A stretch of 64,000 bases of DNA from Embleya hyalina (GTDB lineage: Bacteria; Actinomycetota; Actinomycetes; Streptomycetales; Streptomycetaceae): assembly GCF_003967355.1 (NCBI RefSeq), contig NZ_BIFH01000013.1, positions 1 through 64,000 of the forward strand, given 5' to 3'. The notes under the pieces are model-generated. The model did no database searches. It was given only the letters and a program-made list of their open reading frames with translations, and had not been told where the DNA came from. A program made the translations under genes and the position numbers. Positions 8,422 through 23,489 of the stretch are shown piece after piece; the stretch's first letter is position 1, and every line of letters begins with the position of its first letter.

Positions 8422-10092
8422 ATGCAGGGCAATCAAGCCATCGGGGACAACAGCGGCAGCACGACCGCGGGCAGGTCGGCAGGCAGCAGATCCGCCCGGC
8501 GCCGGGCCGTGCGACGCGCCGCCGCGCCCGTCGCGGTCACCGTGGCCGCCGCCATGATGCTCGCCGCGTGCGGCGGCGCCAAGAAGAACACCGACGACAA
8601 GGGGGAGGGCGGCGGGGGCACCCTCGTGGTCGACACCTCCTTCAGCCTCAAGACCGCCGACCCGGGCCGCACCTTCGAGCCCACCGGCATCATGGTCACC
8701 CGGCCCGTCTACGACACGCTGCTCACCTTCGCCAACGGCGATGTGACCAAGCCCGTGCCGTTGCTCGCCTCCTCCTACGAGGCCTCGCCCGACGCGAAGA
8801 CCTTCACGTTCCCGCTGCGCTCGGAGGCCAAGTTCTCCGACGGCACCCCGGTCACCGCGAAGGATGTCGTCTTCTCCTTCAACCGGGTCAAGAACCTCAA
8901 GGGCAACCCGGCCTTCCTGCTCGACGGCGTGACCGCCACCGCCAAGGACGAGCACACGGTGGTGCTGACCACCGCGGCCGCCGACCCCGCGCTGCCCTTC
9001 CGCATCGCGACCCCGGCGCTCGGCGTGGTCAACTCCAAGACCGTCGCCGCGCACGGCGGTTCCGACGCGGCCGGCGCCGACCAGGGTGACAAGGCCGAGC
9101 AGTTCCTCAACGGCGACTCGCAGGGCAGCGGTCCGTACAAGATCACCAAGTACGACGTGTCCACCGAGGTCATCCTCACCCGCAACGAGAACTACTGGGG
9201 CACCAAGCCCAAGTACGCCAAGGTCGTGGTGCGCAACGTGCCCGCGAACACCCAGCAGTTGAACGTGCTCAGCGGCGAGAGCCAGATCTCCCTCGACATG
9301 TCGCCCGACCAGGCGGTCAAGGTCAAGGGCCAGGCCCAGGTGCTGCAACAGCCCACGCCCACCACCGCGTTCCTGTTCACGAACGACAACCCGGCGATCT
9401 CGCCGACGACCTCCAACAAGGACTTCCAGGAGGCCGTGCGCTACGGCCTGGACTACAAGAGCCTGTTGGACGTGGCCGGCGCCGGATCCGCCCAGGCGGC
9501 CGGGATCGTGCCCAGCTTCTTCACCGGCGCGCTCGACCCGGGCAAGGCCATCCAGCGCGATGTCCCGCGCGCCAAGGCCGCGTTGGCCAAGGCCGGGCTG
9601 AACAACCCGAGCGTCGACCTGTACTACGCGTCCGACGTGACGATCAACGGCATCAACTTCGGCGACCTCGCCGCCCGGGTGCAGGCCAACCTCAAGGAGG
9701 TCGGCATCAACATCAACCTCAAGCCGGCCCCCACCCAGACCGCGCTCGACTCGTACCGCAACGGCTCCGAGGCGATGGGCCTCTGGTGGTGGCAGGCCGA
9801 CTACCCGGACGCCAGCGACTACCTCGCCTTCACCCCCGGCGAGCTGGTCAGCCTGCGCGCCGGCTGGAAGGCCGAGGCCAACCCCGAGGTGTCCGGCCTG
9901 GCACAGAAGGCCAAGACGGCCACGTCCGACACGGAACGTGTGACCGCCTACAAGCAACTGCAGGAGGCGATGAACAAGACCGGCCCGTTCATGCCCCTGC
10001 TCCAGCCCGCACAGGTGATCGCCGCGAACAACTCGGTCAAGAACCTGCGCTACAACCCGATCTGGTACATCGATGTCGACAAGCTCGGCTGA
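8422..10092 (+). CDS. Peptide ABC transporter substrate-binding lipoprotein (SBP family 5)
   Basis: 556 aa, typical DppA/OppA length. A basic n-region is followed by MMLAACGG, a lipobox placing the lipidated Cys near residue 51. The fold signatures of family 5 are present: PVYDTLLTF, SDGTPVTAKDVVFSF and GSGPYKITKYD. It should be anchored outside the membrane and capture di- or oligopeptides for the permeases encoded immediately downstream. First gene of the rightward operon to about 15.9 kb. The next gene overlaps its last 20 bp. Confidence 0.92.
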   Translation: MQGNQAIGDNSGSTTAGRSAGSRSARRRAVRRAAAPVAVTVAAAMMLAACGGAKKNTDDKGEGGGGTLVVDTSFSLKTADPGRTFEPTGIMVTRPVYDTLLTFANGDVTKPVPLLASSYEASPDAKTFTFPLRSEAKFSDGTPVTAKDVVFSFNRVKNLKGNPAFLLDGVTATAKDEHTVVLTTAAADPALPFRIATPALGVVNSKTVAAHGGSDAAGADQGDKAEQFLNGDSQGSGPYKITKYDVSTEVILTRNENYWGTKPKYAKVVVRNVPANTQQLNVLSGESQISLDMSPDQAVKVKGQAQVLQQPTPTTAFLFTNDNPAISPTTSNKDFQEAVRYGLDYKSLLDVAGAGSAQAAGIVPSFFTGALDPGKAIQRDVPRAKAALAKAGLNNPSVDLYYASDVTINGINFGDLAARVQANLKEVGININLKPAPTQTALDSYRNGSEAMGLWWWQADYPDASDYLAFTPGELVSLRAGWKAEANPEVSGLAQKAKTATSDTERVTAYKQLQEAMNKTGPFMPLLQPAQVIAANNSVKNLRYNPIWYIDVDKLG

Positions 10093-11197
10093 TCCCACCG
10101 CCCGACCCGGCACTCCCCGGGCGGCCGCATCCCCCAAGGGGGGTGCGGCCCCCGGGCCCCGGGCCGCGCGCGGCTCCCACCCCTTCGCCAGGTTCGTCCT
10201 GGTGCGCCTGTCCATCGGTCTGCTGCTGTGCGTGGGCATCACCGTCCTGGCCTTCGTGCTGACCCACTCCGTGCCCGGCGACCCGGTCGCCGCGAACCTC
10301 GGCGACCGGGCCCAGAACGACCCGGCCGCGGTCGCCGCGTTCAAGGAGAAGAACGGGCTCAACGACTCGCTGCCCTCGCAATACTTCACCTACCTGGGCA
10401 ACCTGCTGCACGGCGACATGGGCACCTCCCAGCAGACCCACCGACCCGTCTGGGACGACCTGGCCGACAAGGTCCCCGCCAGCGTCGAACTCGCCCTGTT
10501 CGCCATCGTGTTGGCCCTGGTGATCGGCGTCGGCCTGGGTATCGTCGCGGCCGTCACCCGCAACGGGTGGCCGGACCGGGTGATCCGGGTGGTCAGCCTC
10601 GCGGGCGTGTCCATGCCGGTCTTCTGGCTCGCCCAAGTCGCCTTCTACGTCTTCTCGTTCAAGCTCGGCTGGATCCAGGCGGGCGGTCGGCTCTCGCCCG
10701 GCGCGATCCCCCCGGACGAGATCACCGGCCTCTACACGCTCGACTCGCTCCTGGTCGGCGACACCGGCACATTCGGTGAGGCATTCTCCCGGATGATCCT
10801 GCCCGCCTGCGTACTGGCCGCCTTCAACATCGGCGTACTCACCCGCTTCACCCGCGCCGCCGTACTCGAAGCCCTCGGCAACGACTACGTGCGCGCCGCC
10901 CGGGCCAAGGGACTTCCCGAGAGCACGGTCATCCGTCGGCACGTGTTGCGCCCCGCGCTCACCTCGATCCTGACCGTCGCCGGACTCACCTTCGGTGGCA
11001 TGCTCGCCGGTACCGTGCTCGTCGAGAACGTGCTGTCCTGGCCCGGATTGGGCCAGTACGCCTACAAGAGCGCGCTCAACCTGGACCTGCCGTCCATCAT
11101 GGGCGTCTGCCTGTTCGTCGCGGTCGTCTACGTCGTGATCAACCTCCTCGTGGACCTGCTCTACGGGGTCATCGACCCGAGGATTCGCCTCTCGTGA
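10073..11197 (+). CDS. Peptide ABC transporter permease (DppB type)
   Basis: 374 aa. After a ~40-residue hydrophilic N-terminus there are six predicted membrane segments, starting at LVRLSIGLLLCVGITVLAFVL. The inner-membrane EAA loop appears as EALGNDYVRAARAKGLPES. The start ATG 10073 lies inside the end of the substrate-binding gene and has no clear Shine-Dalgarno, so translation may be coupled or begin slightly later. It forms the import channel with the next gene's product. Confidence 0.9.
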   Translation: MSTSSADPTARPGTPRAAASPKGGAAPGPRAARGSHPFARFVLVRLSIGLLLCVGITVLAFVLTHSVPGDPVAANLGDRAQNDPAAVAAFKEKNGLNDSLPSQYFTYLGNLLHGDMGTSQQTHRPVWDDLADKVPASVELALFAIVLALVIGVGLGIVAAVTRNGWPDRVIRVVSLAGVSMPVFWLAQVAFYVFSFKLGWIQAGGRLSPGAIPPDEITGLYTLDSLLVGDTGTFGEAFSRMILPACVLAAFNIGVLTRFTRAAVLEALGNDYVRAARAKGLPESTVIRRHVLRPALTSILTVAGLTFGGMLAGTVLVENVLSWPGLGQYAYKSALNLDLPSIMGVCLFVAVVYVVINLLVDLLYGVIDPRIRLS

Positions 11198-12114
11198 ACG
11201 CCACGCGCCTGTTCCTCGGCGATCGGCTCGGAGCCGACCGCACCCCCAGCCCGGACGACGACGCCCCCCGGCGCAAGCCCCGGCGCGCCGGGAAGTCGCC
11301 CTGGCGCAGCCCGTTGGCCGTCACCGGCCTCGCCATCATCGGCGTCTTCCTGATCGCCGCCGTGTTCGCCTCGCTGATCTCCCCCGAGGACCCCCTCGCG
11401 CAGAAGTGGCCGAAGTACCAGTCCCCCTCCGGGGACCACTGGTTCGGCACCGATCAACTCGGCCGCGACATCCTGTCCCGGGTCATCCACGGCACCCGGA
11501 TCTCGCTGCCGCTGGCACTGCTCCTGGTGGTCCTGGCGATGGTCATCGGTACCGTCCTGGGCGCCGTCGCCGGATACTTCGGCGGCTGGATCGACATGGT
11601 CGTCATGCGCTGCGCCGACCTGGTGCTCGCGTTCCCGGCGATCATCCTGGCCATGGCCGTGGTCGCCGCGCTCGGGCCGAACCTGACGAACGCCGTCCTC
11701 GCCGTGGTGATCGTCAGTTGGCCGACCTACGCCCGCGTGGTGCGCGGCCTGGTACTGACGCTGCGGCAATCGGACTTCGTCCAGGCCGACCGCCTCCTCG
11801 GCGCCTCCGGGTGGCGCGTACTCGCCGTGGACCTGCGGCCCAACCTGGCCGGGCCGGTCGCCGTGCTCGCCGCGCTCGACCTGGGCAACGCGGTACTGCT
11901 GCTGTCCGGACTGTCCTTCCTCGGCCTGGGCGCGCAACCGCCCGCCGCCGAGTGGGGCGCCATGGTCAACGCCGGATCGGCGAACTTCGACGCGTGGTGG
12001 GTCGCGGTCTTCCCCGGCGCGGCCATCCTGCTCTCGGTGCTCGCCTTCAACTTCCTGGGCGACACCCTGCGCGACGCGCTCGACCCGCGTACGGCCCGGG
12101 CGATCCGAAAGTGA
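11194..12114 (+). CDS. Peptide ABC transporter permease (DppC type)
   Basis: 306 aa from GTG 11194, overlapping the dppB-like stop (GTGA). An N-terminal membrane helix (VTGLAIIGVFLIAAVFASLI) is followed by the characteristic HWFGTDQLGRDILSRVIHG. The C-terminal BPD_transp_1 domain contains LTLRQSDFVQADRLLGAS as its EAA-type loop. Pairs with the preceding permease as the heterodimeric channel of a di/oligopeptide importer. Confidence 0.92.
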   Translation: MNATRLFLGDRLGADRTPSPDDDAPRRKPRRAGKSPWRSPLAVTGLAIIGVFLIAAVFASLISPEDPLAQKWPKYQSPSGDHWFGTDQLGRDILSRVIHGTRISLPLALLLVVLAMVIGTVLGAVAGYFGGWIDMVVMRCADLVLAFPAIILAMAVVAALGPNLTNAVLAVVIVSWPTYARVVRGLVLTLRQSDFVQADRLLGASGWRVLAVDLRPNLAGPVAVLAALDLGNAVLLLSGLSFLGLGAQPPAAEWGAMVNAGSANFDAWWVAVFPGAAILLSVLAFNFLGDTLRDALDPRTARAIRK

Positions 12115-13187
12115 CTCCGAAAGTGACGGAGATGAACGAGAACCCCGCTTCGACGCCCGACACCTCGACCCGCGAGAAGTCGACACCCGGCGCGGAACCC
12201 GTGCTGGCGATCCGCGATCTGGTCGTCGAACTGCCCGGCCCCGACGGGAGTCCGCTGCGCGCCATCGACGGCGTCGACCTCACCGTCGGGCGCGGCGAGA
12301 TCGTCGGCCTCGCCGGCGAGAGCGGTTCCGGCAAGACGATGACCGCGCTCGCCCTGCTCGGCCTGCTGCCGCAGGGCGGCACCGCCGCCGGGCAGATGCT
12401 CGTCGAGGGCGACGACGTACTGAAGATGACCCCGCGTCAGGTCCGCGACCTGCGCGGCAACCGGGTCGCGATGGTCTTCCAGGACCCGATGACCTCGCTG
12501 CACCCGATGCTCAGCGTCGGCAAGCAGCTCACGGAACACCTGCGCCACCACAAGAAGTTGGACAAGCGCGCGGCCAACGCCCGCGCGGTGGAACTGCTCG
12601 CCACGGTGCGCATCCCCGACCCCGAACGGGCGCTCGGCCGCTACCCGCACCAGTTCTCCGGCGGCATGCGCCAGCGCATCGCGATCGCCATCGCGCTCGC
12701 CTGCGACCCGGCGCTGCTGCTCGCCGACGAGCCCACCACGGCCCTGGACGTCACCGTCCAGGCGGGCATCCTGCGCCTGCTGGACCGACTGCGCCGGGAG
12801 AACGGCCTGTCCGTGCTGATCATCACGCACGACCTCGGCGTGATGTCCGCCCTCGCCGACCGGGTCAGCGTGATGTACGCGGGCCGCATCGTGGAGAGCG
12901 GGCCGCGCGCCGACGTGCTGCGCGAACCGCGACACCCGTACACCCGGGGCCTGTTGGACGCGCTGCCGCACCCGGACGGGGGCAACGCCGCGCTGGTGCC
13001 GATCGTCGGCTCGCCACCCAAGCTCGGCCAGGCGCCCAGCGGTTGCGCGTTCCACCCGCGCTGCCCGCACGCGGTGGCCGGTTGCGCCGAGGAGCGGCCG
13101 AACCTGCTCGCGTTGACCCCCACCCACGCCGGGGCCTGCCCGATCGACCCCCTGGCCGTCACCGCCTCGAAGGTGGGTACCCCATGA
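12111..13187 (+). CDS. Peptide ABC transporter ATP-binding protein (DppD type)
   Basis: About 358 aa. GTG 12111 overlaps the preceding stop (GTGA); GTG 12123 and ATG 12132 are in-frame alternatives and none has a good ribosome-binding site. Walker A GESGSGKT, signature FSGGMRQR, Walker [13 protein letters not shown] and the H-loop ITHD are intact. The C-terminal oligopeptide-transporter extension has [14 protein letters not shown]. Energises the importer together with the next ATPase. Confidence 0.92.
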
Positions 13188-14188
13188 CCGCGCTCTCCGG
13201 CACCTCCAATCTCACCGTCACCAGCAAGGACGTCGGCCTGCGGCTGCACGACCTGTCCGTGACCTACCGCTCGCCGGGCCGCCCCCTGGTGCGCGCGGTG
13301 GCCGGGGTGAGTCTGGCGGTGGCCCCGGGGCAGGTGGTCGGCCTGGTCGGCGAATCCGGCTGCGGCAAGTCGACCCTCGGCAAGGCCGCGGTCGGGCTGC
13401 TCAAGCCGGCCGGCGGCCGGGTCACCTTCAACGGCCGGGCGGTCGACACGCTGGGCCTGCGACCGCGGCCGAGCGACCAGCGCGGCCTGCAGATGGTCTT
13501 CCAGGACCCCTACGCCTCGCTCAACCCGCGCCGCCGGATCGGCGAACAGATCTCCGACGCGGTGGTGTTGGCCGGCGGCACCCGCGAACGCGGCCGTGAG
13601 ACGGCCCGCGAACTCCTCGAACGAGTCGGCCTGGCCGCCGAGTTCGTCGACCGCTTCCCGCACGAGTTCTCCGGCGGACAGCGGCAGCGCATCGCCATCG
13701 CCCGGGTGTTGGCCGCCGAGCCGTCGTGCATCGTCGCCGACGAGCCGATCGCCGCCCTGGACGCCTCCGCGCAGGCGTCGGTGGCCAACCTGTTGCTCGA
13801 CCTGGCCCGGGAGCGCAACGTCGGCCTGCTGTTCATCTCGCACGACCTGTCCATCGTGCGGCAGATCGCCGACACCGTCGCGGTGATGTACCTGGGCACC
13901 GTGGTCGAGAGCGGCCCCACCGCCCAGGTCTGGGACGACCCGCGCCACCCGTACAGCAAGGCGCTGATCTCCGCGGTGCCGCGCGCCGACGGCAGCGGCG
14001 AGTTGCCCGTCGACCTCCCCGGCGACGTCCCCGACCCCGCCTTCCCGCCCACCGGCTGCCGGTTCCACCCGCGCTGCCCGATCGCCACCGACGCCTGCGA
14101 GGTCGACGAGCCCGCACTGGTGGAATTCCTCCCGGAGCGCAGGGCCGCCTGTTCGGTCCTCGCTCCCGCTCTCACGAAAGTCGGGTGA
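13184..14188 (+). CDS. Peptide ABC transporter ATP-binding protein (DppF type)
   Basis: 334 aa from ATG 13184, overlapping the upstream stop by 4 bp (ATGA). Walker [10 protein letters not shown], signature FSGGQRQR, Walker [13 protein letters not shown] and the C-terminal [14 protein letters not shown] element are all present. Fifth gene of the importer operon. The presence of all five components indicates a complete functional transporter. Confidence 0.92.
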
Positions 14189-14196
14189 CCCCACCC

Positions 14197-15378
14197 ATGT
14201 GGTTGACCAACTGTCACGTCGTCGACGTCGTCACCGGCGAGGTCCTGCGCGATCGCAGCGTGCACGTCGACAACGGTGTCATCGTCGAGGTGGCCGCCGC
14301 CGCGCCGGCGGACGCGGACGTCCACGACCTGGGCGGGCGGCACCTGCTGCCCGGGCTGATCACGTGCCACTCGCACATGTCGATCGTCTTCCCCTTCTCC
14401 GAGACGCGCGAGGACGAACCGGCCGAACTGACCGCGTTCCGCGCCGCCCAGCGGGCCGCCGACGCGCTGCACGCCGGGGTGACCACGATGCGGTGCGTGC
14501 ACGAGCAGAACCGGATCGACTTCGTGCTGCGCGAGGCGCGCGCCCGGGGCTGGATCCGCGCCCCGCGCGTATTCGGCGCCGGTCGCGCGCTGTCCACCCC
14601 CGGCGGCCACGGCGAGGGCTCGGACTGTGTCTACGTCAAGGGCGCGGACGCCTTCTACCACGCGGCCCTGGGCGAACTCGAGGCCGGCGCCGACCACATC
14701 AAGATCTTCATCAACTCCGGCCTGGCCCGCGAGGGCGAGGACTTCGAGCACGCGGAGATGACCGACGCGGAGATCGCCGCCACCGTCAAGGCCGCCGACG
14801 AGCACGGCGCCTACGTCGTCGCGCACGCCGGCGAGTCCGCCGCGATCCGGCAGGCCGTCGAGTTGGGCGTGCGCTCGTTCGAGCACATCTACGCCCTCGA
14901 CGCGGAGACCGCGCGCCTGCTCGCCGAGCGGGAAGCGTTCGTCACCCCGACGCTGTGCGTGACCAACTCGCTGGGCTGGATGCGGGACAACCACTTCGAC
15001 GAGGGCTCGGTCGTCAACGCCAAGAACGCCATCGCGCCGCACCAGGAGAGCTTCCGGCGCGCGGTCGAGGCGGGCGTACAGGTGGTCAACGGCACCGACG
15101 TGCCGCCCGGCGATCGGGTCGACGGGGTGTCCGCCGTCGTGCACGAGATGTACCTGATGGCCAAGGGCGGCCTGGACAACCTGCGCGTGCTCCAGGCGGC
15201 CACCGTCACCGCGGCCCGGCTGATCCGGGCCGAGGACCGGCTCGGACGGATCGCCCCCGGCTACGCGGCCGACCTGATCGCCGTCGACGGCGACCCGCTG
15301 AACGACCTCGGCGCGATGGGCCGGATGTCGTTCGTCATGCTGGAGGGCGAGGTCGTCCGCGAGGACGTACCGGTCTGA
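14197..15378 (+). CDS. Metal-dependent amidohydrolase, prolidase-like (COG1228 type)
   Basis: 393 aa from ATG 14197, 8 bp after the ATPase gene. The complete binuclear-metal ligand set of the amidohydrolase superfamily is visible: HSH (CHSHMS, residues ~62-67), the carboxylatable Lys in HIKIFINSG, His in VVAHAGES, His in SFEHIY and Asp in NGTDVPPG. Members of this group include Xaa-Pro and other Xaa dipeptidases as well as imidazolonepropionase-like enzymes. Being the first gene after a peptide importer suggests an intracellular dipeptidase acting on imported peptides. With the hydroxyproline-type operon next door, X-Pro or X-Hyp dipeptides are an attractive but inferred substrate. Confidence 0.87.
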
Positions 15379-15424: not shown

Positions 15425-15871
15425 ATGACCACCCCTTCCACCTCCCGCGACGCCCACCGCCCCGCCGGGTCGGCCGAGGACCGCGCCGCCGTGTGGAGCG
15501 CCCTGCTCGACATCTACGCCGGCTTCACGGCCGGCGACCGGGAGCGGATCGACCGCCGGATCCACCCCGAGGCCACCATCTGGGACTCGGCCGCCCCCGA
15601 ACTCCTCTTCGGGCGCGCCGACCTGGACCGCATCCGGGCGGAGCGCCCGGTCGGCCCCGACGCCCCGGTGGTCACCGGGATCCACGCGAGCGACGAGGTG
15701 ATCGACATCTGGGACGACACCGCCCTCGCCCGCTACAGCCTGCGCGTCGACTTCGCGCCGGCCGCCGACGGCACGGTCCAGCCCTCGGAACACATCCGCA
15801 ACACCGCCGTGGCCCGCCGGTTCCCCGAGGGCTGGCTCGTCGTCCACAACCACGAGGACGTCCTCGCGTAG
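15425..15871 (+). CDS. NTF2/SnoaL-like protein
   Basis: 148 aa. The pattern (helix with WSALLDIYAGFTAGD, then HPEATIWD, and a C-terminal FPEGWLVVHNHED strand) fits the DUF4440/SnoaL-like cone fold used by small hydrolases, isomerases and binding proteins. Last gene of the transporter operon, 46 bp after the amidohydrolase, and followed by a strong hairpin. No catalytic role can be read from the sequence. Confidence 0.75.
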   Translation: MTTPSTSRDAHRPAGSAEDRAAVWSALLDIYAGFTAGDRERIDRRIHPEATIWDSAAPELLFGRADLDRIRAERPVGPDAPVVTGIHASDEVIDIWDDTALARYSLRVDFAPAADGTVQPSEHIRNTAVARRFPEGWLVVHNHEDVLA

Positions 15872-15912: not shown

Positions 15913-16059
15913 TCTCGGGGCTTCGTCGCCGGTTCGGGCGGCACGGGTGGGGCGGGACTTGCTAGGGTGTGCGATTGCTCAATCCGCGCAGACGCGAGGA
16001 GCATGCCTCGGCGTGCGCCGGTTCCGGCCGGGCACGGCGCGCGGGAAGGACGTGGAGCG

Positions 16060-16218
16060 GTGAGCACACCCCGGTACGAAAAGAAGGCCGAGTTCTTCGA
16101 GACACCCGGTCGTCCCGCCCGCGTCCGGGACCCGCTCGAAGATCCGCGCGCGGCGGCGCCGGCGTCCGCGGCGACGGCCGGCACCCCGGCCGACGGATCC
16201 GGGAGCCTGCCGTGCTGA
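16060..16218 (+). CDS. Small protein, 52 aa, upstream of malic-enzyme-like gene
   Basis: GTG 16060 is preceded by GGAAGGA (16044-16050). The product begins MSTPRYEKKAEFFETPG and is followed by an Ala/Pro-rich tail. Its stop (16216-16218) overlaps the GTG start of the next gene, a typical coupling arrangement. I do not recognise the sequence. The alternative is an untranslated leader. Confidence 0.4.
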   Translation: MSTPRYEKKAEFFETPGRPARVRDPLEDPRAAAPASAATAGTPADGSGSLPC

Positions 16219-17468
16219 GTCGGGGGCAGGGCGGCGCGGAACGGCCCGCGCCCAATCCCGCCTACAGCGTCCGGATCCACATCCCGCCCGACGCCGACGC
16301 GATCGTGGAGAGCGTGCTCGCCGACGCACCCGGCACGGTCGCCCGCCGGGCGGACGAACCGGACGTGACGGGCGCGCGGCGGATCACCCTGGACGCCGAC
16401 GGCCCGCACACCCTCGCCTGGCTCACCCGCACCCTCGCGCGCCGCCTGGGCGCCGACCTGCTGCACGCCCAGGACCCCGTCTTCACCGCCGCCTCCACCG
16501 GCAAACTCACCCTGCGCGTATGCGCGGCCACCAGCACCGGACACGACGTCGCGCTCCTGGACGCGGACGCCGACCGCCGGGTGGTCTCCCACCTGGCCGC
16601 ACACCCGGAACAGATCGACCGCTACACCGGACGCGGCCACCGCGTCGCGCTGATCAGCGACGCGAGCGCCGTCCTGGGCTTCGAGGAACTGCCCGCCGAC
16701 GCGGTCCTGCCCGCCCTCGAATCGCAGGCCGTGCACCTGCGCCGGGCCACCGGACTCGACGTCTTCCCGCTGCCCGTGGCCACCCCCGACGTCACCGACA
16801 TCGCCCGCGCGGTGCGCATCCTGGCCCCCGGCTTCGCCGCCGCGGTGCTGGTACACACCCGCCTGGACCGGGTCACCGTCACGCACGCCGCGCTCGGCCC
16901 GACCCCGCCGGTGCTGCTCCTGGACACGATCAACGACGGCCTGGCGCCGGCCACCGCCGCCGCCACGGTCAACGCCCTCGTCAATCGTGGCCTCAACCCG
17001 CTCTCCGCCCGGGTGATCGTGGTCGACCCCGCCGCCGGCGGCGACCTCGCCGGACTGCTGATCGCCTGCGGCATCGCCGACCTGACCCTGTTCGACCCGT
17101 TCACCCACAGTGCCGACGCGCTGCACACGATCGCCGACGGCGCGGACCTGATCGTCGACCTCACCGCCTTCGCCACCCCGCCCCCGGGCGTCCCGGTCCT
17201 GCGCGCCCGCCCCGACACCCCGCCCGCCTTCGGTGCCACCACCACCGGGCCACGCCCCCTGCACGCCCTCCCGGGCCTGCTCACCGCGGCCACCGCCACC
17301 CGCCGCCCGATCACCGGCCACGCCCGGGTCGCCGCCGTGTACGCGCTGATCGAGAACACCCCGCGCAACGCGCTCCTGCCCCCGACCGACCAACCCGGAC
17401 TCACCGCCGTCGTCGCCGCGGCGGCCACCCGGGCGCTCGACAACGACCCGGACCCGGACCGGGGCTGA
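16212..17468 (+). CDS. Malic-enzyme homologue lacking catalytic residues (pseudoenzyme)
   Basis: 418 aa from GTG 16212. An ACT-like N-terminus (AYSVRIHIPP) is followed by segments alignable to bacterial malic enzymes: YTGRGHRVALISDASAVLG, the VMEGK(A)-loop replaced by ALESQAVHLRR, APGF, and a C-terminal Rossmann-like region (VIVVDPAAGGDLAGLLIACG). The active-site Lys of the V-M-E-G-K motif is Gln here; the metal-binding N-L-E-D segment is replaced by AVLVHTRL and F-H-D-D-Q-H-G-T by LLLDTINDGLAPAT. The enzyme should therefore not decarboxylate malate. It is uninterrupted and retains coding bias, suggesting a maintained regulatory or binding role. Function unknown. Confidence 0.75.
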   Translation: MLSRGQGGAERPAPNPAYSVRIHIPPDADAIVESVLADAPGTVARRADEPDVTGARRITLDADGPHTLAWLTRTLARRLGADLLHAQDPVFTAASTGKLTLRVCAATSTGHDVALLDADADRRVVSHLAAHPEQIDRYTGRGHRVALISDASAVLGFEELPADAVLPALESQAVHLRRATGLDVFPLPVATPDVTDIARAVRILAPGFAAAVLVHTRLDRVTVTHAALGPTPPVLLLDTINDGLAPATAAATVNALVNRGLNPLSARVIVVDPAAGGDLAGLLIACGIADLTLFDPFTHSADALHTIADGADLIVDLTAFATPPPGVPVLRARPDTPPAFGATTTGPRPLHALPGLLTAATATRRPITGHARVAAVYALIENTPRNALLPPTDQPGLTAVVAAAATRALDNDPDPDRG

Positions 17469-23182: not shown

Positions 23183-23273
23183 CCCGGATCTCCACGGGAT
23201 CCCGATGAGTTCCCGATGGGCCCGCGGTCCTATCCTTCGACGGCATCGGAACGACCGCGTGAGGAATACGGAC

Positions 23274-23489
23274 ATGAGCGACAAGCCGAACGGCCCGGCG
23301 GGCTACTTCCCCTCGATCGAGAAGAAGTACGGGCGGCCGATCGAGGAGTGGTTGGACCTGGTTCGCTCCTCGCCGCTGACCAGGCACATGGAGTTGGTCT
23401 CCTGGCTCAAGACCGAGCACGGCCTGGGTCACGGCCACGCCAACGCGCTGGTCGCCCACGTGCGCGCCGAGCAGTCGGATGCCGGGTAG
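23274..23489 (+). CDS. DUF4287-type small protein
   Basis: 71 aa, starting MSDKPNGPAGYFPSIEKKYG. The segment PIEEWLDLVRSS, then WLKTEHGLGHGHANALVAH, matches the short DUF4287 domain found alone or fused in many actinobacteria. GAGG at 23261-23264 serves the ATG at 23274. Function unknown; the fold is a compact helical DNA-binding-like bundle by homology. Convergent with the XRE-cupin gene that follows. Confidence 0.85.
   Translation: MSDKPNGPAGYFPSIEKKYGRPIEEWLDLVRSSPLTRHMELVSWLKTEHGLGHGHANALVAHVRAEQSDAG

Follow-up and report, generated by a model that had tools for sequence, protein, structure and literature searches.

Malic enzymes are the closest described relatives of the protein analysed here, in particular the ACT-domain NAD-type enzyme of the Streptomycetaceae (in the present genome at G000:C56:52538-53407) and the NADP-dependent MaeB (PRK12861), which carries a phosphotransacetylase-like C-terminal half. 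Further likenesses lie with SbtB-type PII-like regulators, with ACT domains and, for a linked gene, with the ArsR/SmtB family. SbtB works with a bicarbonate transporter, and the SulP proteins include bicarbonate transporters as well. In the window, i.e. the whole stretch of 64,000 nt of Embleya hyalina DNA that was analysed, one ORF encodes a protein of this background, for which we use the label pME (malic-enzyme-fold pseudoenzyme):

16212-17468, + strand: pME, malic-enzyme-fold pseudoenzyme, 418 aa (reading frame, profile, fold, residue alignment, codon model)
16254-16487, + strand: ACT/PII-like domain of pME, residues 15-92 (AlphaFold β-α-β-β-α-β; Foldseek matches to SbtB-type PII-like proteins and ACT domains)

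pME shares with the ACT-domain NAD-type malic enzyme its domain order, the fold of the catalytic half and an HMM-HMM alignment of 417 columns (pME family versus canonical ACT-type enzymes, E 1.3e-23), but it lacks the catalytic, metal and malate residues, is only about 27 % identical, sits in a different gene context and evolves faster, i.e. with 77 % versus 97 % identity between the same two genomes. MaeB and PRK12861 gave the best phmmer match in the PDB (6zn4 MaeB, E 1.2e-12) and the best NCBIfam match (partial, E 2.4e-11), respectively, but pME is without the phosphotransacetylase-like half and scores 42 bits against a cut-off of 1178. We read pME as a non-catalytic malic-enzyme pseudoenzyme kept as an effector of an ArsR/SulP module, probably with a ligand-sensing role, and give this whole reading a probability of roughly 0.55; that pME is a selected pseudoenzyme in an ArsR-linked module we hold much more firmly, and the sensing less so.

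The ORF opens with GTG and runs uninterrupted for 418 codons, with a GC content of 79, 56 and 94 % at codon positions 1, 2 and 3, i.e. the normal coding pattern expected for a genuine gene of this 12-Mb genome, as an earlier note on this DNA had stated for frame and codon use. The same note had the protein align with malic enzymes over its length, which holds at the level of profiles and fold, whereas single sequences match strongly only at residues ~95-295. The family profile recovered the malic enzyme 2a9f (E 1.9e-23), and the absence of any Pfam match to the protein at E≤1 shows its divergence. Structure prediction, which the note had named as a way to expose a different fold, returned that of malic enzymes: with the AlphaFold model (pLDDT 78.5), the best Foldseek matches in the PDB were malic enzymes (1vl6, E 4.3e-15, 361 columns, TM about 0.55-0.61), and the high rmsd of these matches probably reflects domain orientation. 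By fold and sequence homology, pME thus belongs with the malic enzyme family, but it has neither the catalytic Tyr and Lys, nor the metal ligands, nor the NAD(P)-binding GxGxxG that also characterize the family. It descends from the malic-enzyme fold, most likely with an ACT-bearing NAD-type enzyme as the source, this type being taken as its sister because of domain order and profile reach rather than a tree.

The N-terminal domain had been called ACT-like, which the predicted structure bears out by fold only. Folded alone, residues 15-96 gave β-α-β-β-α-β (pLDDT 81), the ferredoxin-like topology of ACT domains and also that of PII-like proteins. Foldseek matched SbtB-type PII-like proteins as well as the ACT domains of aspartokinase, phosphoglycerate dehydrogenase and acetohydroxyacid synthase, at weak E values (4e-4 to 4e-3) and 4-19 % identity; since the two classes share their topology, these matches cannot choose between them. 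Pfam returned no match for residues 15-96, so that membership of the ACT family has no sequence-profile counterpart, and the HMM-HMM comparison with the N-termini of ACT-type malic enzymes reached only E 0.058. Unlike the SbtB-type and ACT proteins matched, the pME domain is fused to a malic-enzyme body, and descent from an ACT-type malic enzyme favours ACT.

Residues were compared in an alignment of 11 full-length pME proteins from Embleya, Streptomyces and Frankia with 16 canonical malic enzymes, two of which come from this genome. The following codons of the window replace catalytic motifs:

16560-16562, + strand: D117, in place of the catalytic Tyr (Asp in 11/11 family members)
16719-16727, + strand: E170-S171-Q172, in place of E-G-K with the catalytic Lys (Glu retained in 11/11; Lys replaced by Q in seven and A in four)
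16854-16856, + strand: H215, where NLED has its metal Asp (His in 11/11)
16923-16931, + strand: D238-T239-I240, in place of H-D-D of HDDQHG (D238 invariant)

All 16 canonical enzymes retain the core Tyr, Lys and metal residues. In pME, the Tyr of YTPGVA is Asp throughout (D117 in the window), and the Lys of MEGKA is Q172 in the Embleya, Frankia and S. lanatus members, for which it is a marker, or A172 in the other Streptomyces members. The metal Glu of NLED has become V214 (V, M, I, A or S across the family), the Asp-Asp of HDDQHG T239/I240 (A, S or T, followed by I, L, T or V), and the malate-binding Asn of ANPxPE R331 (Arg or His), so that none of the NLED and HDDQHG metal ligands is kept in any member. 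The FPNQINN segment is deleted, and the GxGxxG Rossmann motif is mostly lost, with only its last Gly (G276) invariant; survivors are E170, the MEGK glutamate, and G97-K98 from GGK. The replacements that the earlier note had picked out in the window copy, i.e. MEGK to LESQ, NLED and DDQHG, are therefore real (Q172, V214/H215, T239/I240), all 11 full-length relatives compared share the losses, and orthologues with intact catalytic residues, which would have spoken against the note's reading, number 0/11. Judged by these residues, pME is a pseudoenzyme with respect to malic enzyme, for which malic-enzyme chemistry should be impossible; it combines the two marks of a pseudoenzyme, namely the loss of catalytic residues and selection that keeps the protein.

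Loss is accompanied by replacement. Thirty columns hold one and the same residue throughout both groups, and another 21 are fixed within each group, but for different residues, among them Y to D117, V to D121, G to S171, D to H215, H to D238, G to D316 and L to H351. Several fall within the former active-site motifs and, by homology, would cluster in space, which suggests a remodelled pocket and not simple decay. The new invariant charged residues D117, D121, H215 and D238 make such a pocket, or a new activity, a live alternative to ACT-like sensing alone. pME could accordingly be a neofunctionalised enzyme whose cleft was rebuilt as a new active or metal site (D117, E170, H215, D238, perhaps H351) for a different reaction: mere loss of function would leave such positions drifting, yet the replacing charged or polar residues D117, D121, H215, D238, D316 and H351 are invariant in 11/11 members. 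We nevertheless consider this somewhat unlikely, as the loss of most of GxGxxG leaves no clear candidate for a cofactor, the family varies (Q or A) where the catalytic Lys used to be, and the PDB matches, being to malic enzymes only, do not suggest another activity.

The gene neighbourhood argues for a regulatory setting. Recurrent neighbours of pME are ArsR-family regulators (HTH_5), SulP transporters with STAS, Pyridox_ox_2, HATPase, STAS and PhnA-like proteins, joined by a carbonic anhydrase in S. nojiriensis. The linked regulators resemble the ArsR/SmtB family in their Pfam HTH_5 domain, but no Cys occurs in any sequence read, so that they are not classic thiol metal sensors. arsR lies directly 5' of pME in E. 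scabrispora, Frankia californiensis and Parafrankia, overlaps it by 4 nt in F. nepalensis and is divergent from it across one intergenic region in S. lanatus. The order in Embleya NBC_00896 is arsR-sulP-pME with a sulP/pME overlap of 7 nt, and in the Streptomyces clade a Pyridox_ox_2 gene directly precedes pME. sulP is thus coupled to pME in NBC_00896 and near it in several loci, but not adjacent in E. scabrispora, F. nepalensis or the window. As far as the sequences tell, this context in an ArsR module, often near a SulP anion transporter, is new here. In three Embleya loci a small conserved protein (GPA-YFPSIEKKYGR) is encoded ~1-7 kb from pME (window 23259-23489; L019:18276-18488; L022:7292-7504).

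Malic enzymes are oligomeric, and pseudoenzymes are common as partners of active paralogues. pME might therefore be a regulatory subunit that forms heteromers with a canonical malic enzyme and tunes this active paralogue; the host genomes that were searched whole do carry canonical malic enzymes too. In none of the loci read, however, does pME adjoin a canonical malic-enzyme gene, its ties being to arsR and often sulP, and we regard this possibility as improbable.

A candidate operator was derived by reading the arsR promoters, i.e. the dyad TTGC-N8-GCAA:

15959-15974, unstranded: operator-like dyad TTGCTAGGGTGTGCGA, one mismatch from TTGC-N8-GCAA, overlapping a -10-like TAGGGT (15963-15968)

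The window dyad TTGCTAGGGTGTGCGA is positioned as TTGCTAAAGTCTGCAA is in E. scabrispora and TTGCTAAAGTAGTCAA in Embleya NBC_00896, in a putative promoter region. Of 12 Streptomycetaceae loci, nine carry a perfect dyad at most 650 bp in front of pME or its operon, and the other three carry one with a single mismatch. These three are all from Embleya, the window included, and as a match alone they are not significant (P 0.06-0.075; window P 0.06), so that the argument for them as operators is their place at the homologous promoter. Altogether, 24 sites occur in 308 kb of pME loci against about 1.8 in shuffles, a count from loci that are partly those that defined the motif. On a genome-wide scale we used the strict form TTGCYAANNTTRGCAA with at most one mismatch. 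In G102 (9.7 Mb) its only sites precede arsR and the pME operon, in the S. lanatus genome they lie between arsR and pME alone, and in the present genome there are just two, both before the sole intact arsR; this last result is independent, as the motif had been derived without that arsR. The strict form TTGCYAANNTTRGCAA is not present in the Frankia loci. Regulator gene and pME are thus preceded by a shared dyad, imperfect in the window, and the dyads are probably ArsR binding sites. A search for a DosR/OsdR box upstream of the window pME was negative; the OsdR paper makes no mention of ArsR, SulP or malic enzyme. Additional TTGC-N8-GCAA dyads were seen at L020:3172, 5219 and 7290, L025:7718 and 15636, and L026:6561. 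They lie close to arsR, carbonic anhydrase and other genes within the same islands, and suggest a broader regulon in some Streptomyces.

Between the dyad and pME, the window retains traces of the lost regulator gene:

16042-16127, + strand: remnant of the arsR 5' end, i.e. ribosome-binding region plus the ~23 initial codons (blastn identity 83.7 % over 86 bp)
16060-16218, + strand: leader ORF of 52 aa, MSTPRYEKKAEFFETPGRPARVR...GSLPC, overlapping the pME start by 7 nt

The blastn match of the remnant is to arsR of NBC_00896 and to the intact arsR of this genome, its local alignment scored 105 against a shuffled maximum of 45, and a stretch of ~21 bp in the arsR leader before the window pME is nearly identical to E. 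scabrispora. The stop-start overlap of leader ORF and pME equals that of sulP and pME in NBC_00896. Possibly, the leader ORF is a collapsed ArsR N-terminus fused to the C-terminus of a SulP, the latter part, which ends in -LPC-stop as SulP does, being suggested by a very short match. The intact arsR (G000:C13:904419-904778) is followed by sulP and lies on the same contig, ~888 kb from the window pME. After this sulP come ~15 codons that match the 5' end of pME and continue into a DUF6126 gene (L067:10649-10936; G000:C13, ~906.65-906.94 kb), a scar which indicates that the operon copy of pME was deleted and that the window pME is the only copy in this genome. The simplest history for the window would be that a deletion with one endpoint inside arsR and the other close to the sulP end left the small coupled leader ORF. 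Since the window dyad is imperfect and arsR has collapsed, regulation there would need the intact arsR ~888 kb away to act in trans. Embleya NBC_00888 (L019:12001-13263) has an arsR-type promoter before pME with no arsR called directly upstream, a second, independent-looking loss.

Despite this history, codon comparisons indicate that the window pME is under purifying selection, the constraint that the earlier note had proposed. Within Embleya, the NG86 dN/dS was 0.17-0.28, and with a GY94-type codon model written for this analysis the five-taxon tree gave ω=0.058; dS is near saturation, which makes ω approximate but leaves its direction. A free window branch took an ω of about 0.05 (0.046 versus a background of 0.062) with almost no gain in likelihood, i.e. 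it did not differ and showed no sign of the neutral drift that would have counted against the note, and fixing it at ω=1 cost 22 log units (2ΔlnL about 45), rejecting neutrality. In pairs with the window copy, third-position differences are 2.6-2.7 times the first-position ones, and the family-invariant residues are retained.

Relatives of pME, with 43-82 % identity, were found in four Embleya genomes (this one included), several Streptomyces lineages and Frankia/Parafrankia. The family is monophyletic (100/100) on a stem of more than two changes per site. It is rare: at E≤1e-20, 7 of the 200 Streptomycetaceae genomes sampled have it, the present one among them, and at E≤1e-35 a sample of 297 genomes from across the phylum yielded no further case; a scan of genome contigs gave nothing with a single protein query and ten loci with an alignment-based one. 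Broken copies comprise a frameshift in G040 and truncations in G093 and S. fildesensis, and in the draft assembly of Parafrankia the gene is split close to the N-terminal end. Rarity and several broken copies together mark pME as dispensable. Among the matches listed from a phage collection, coverage of the query was at most 30 % and identity below 40 %. The annotated S. nojiriensis relative is filed as hypothetical, and a literature search with most subscription journals outside its range found no described malic-enzyme pseudoenzyme. We class pME as a new family of pseudoenzymes that keeps a known fold and has a defined regulatory setting.

The broken copies, the collapsed arsR of the window and the deleted operon copy would also fit a decaying pseudogene that is still open by chance, yet with ω at 0.046, neutrality rejected by the codon test and family-invariant residues kept, we judge this very improbable. 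A divergent but working malic enzyme that carries out the same reaction by other residues has the shared fold and the retained E170 and GK in its favour but is barely credible, since the Tyr, the Lys, all metal ligands and the malate Asn are gone in every pME.

Lost catalytic residues, selection and an operator-like context together suggest that pME probably senses or regulates and does not catalyse. For a pseudoenzyme acting as effector of the ArsR/SulP module, we infer ArsR binding, ligand binding by pME and a partner as follows. The cysteine-free ArsR-type repressor would occupy the TTGC-N8-GCAA dyads that precede its own gene as well as pME or the pME operon until a signal releases it and pME is made, co-translated with SulP in some loci, with ArsR in others, or after the Pyridox_ox_2 protein. 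The ACT/PII-like domain of pME, the remodelled cleft (D117, E170, H215, D238) or both would then bind a small molecule, an anion or a metabolite, and the ligand state of pME would be passed to the partner. It is tempting to speculate that pME is a new type of signal transducer made from a metabolic enzyme, with an ACT/PII-like head on a malic-enzyme body, which reads bicarbonate, a C4-dicarboxylate or the like and controls SulP as SbtB controls SbtA, a version that we consider rather doubtful. Streptomyces SulP proteins have been proposed to move bicarbonate (PMC5489568), and an excerpt of PMC5703999 describes the Escherichia coli SulP protein DauA as moving C4-dicarboxylates and acting as a signal transducer; both precedents would fit a binding protein derived from a malic enzyme. 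The family-wide selected pseudoenzyme and the near-unique operator-like dyad provide a concrete regulator, target and partner for testing. If the sensing reading is true, an enzyme of core metabolism has been turned into a regulator in soil and symbiotic actinobacteria, possibly with a role in inorganic-carbon or organic-anion traffic.

Upstream of pME, the window holds an apparent operon (8509-15378) for a lipoprotein, permeases, two oligopeptide-type ABC ATPases and an amidohydrolase; a SnoaL-like protein (15425-15871) is encoded after it. On a plasmid of S. anthocyanicus, a malic-enzyme-like gene whose MEGK is intact (L021:4959-6170) lies beside DAHP synthase, isochorismatase and anthranilate synthase, in a neighbourhood that resembles a biosynthetic cluster.
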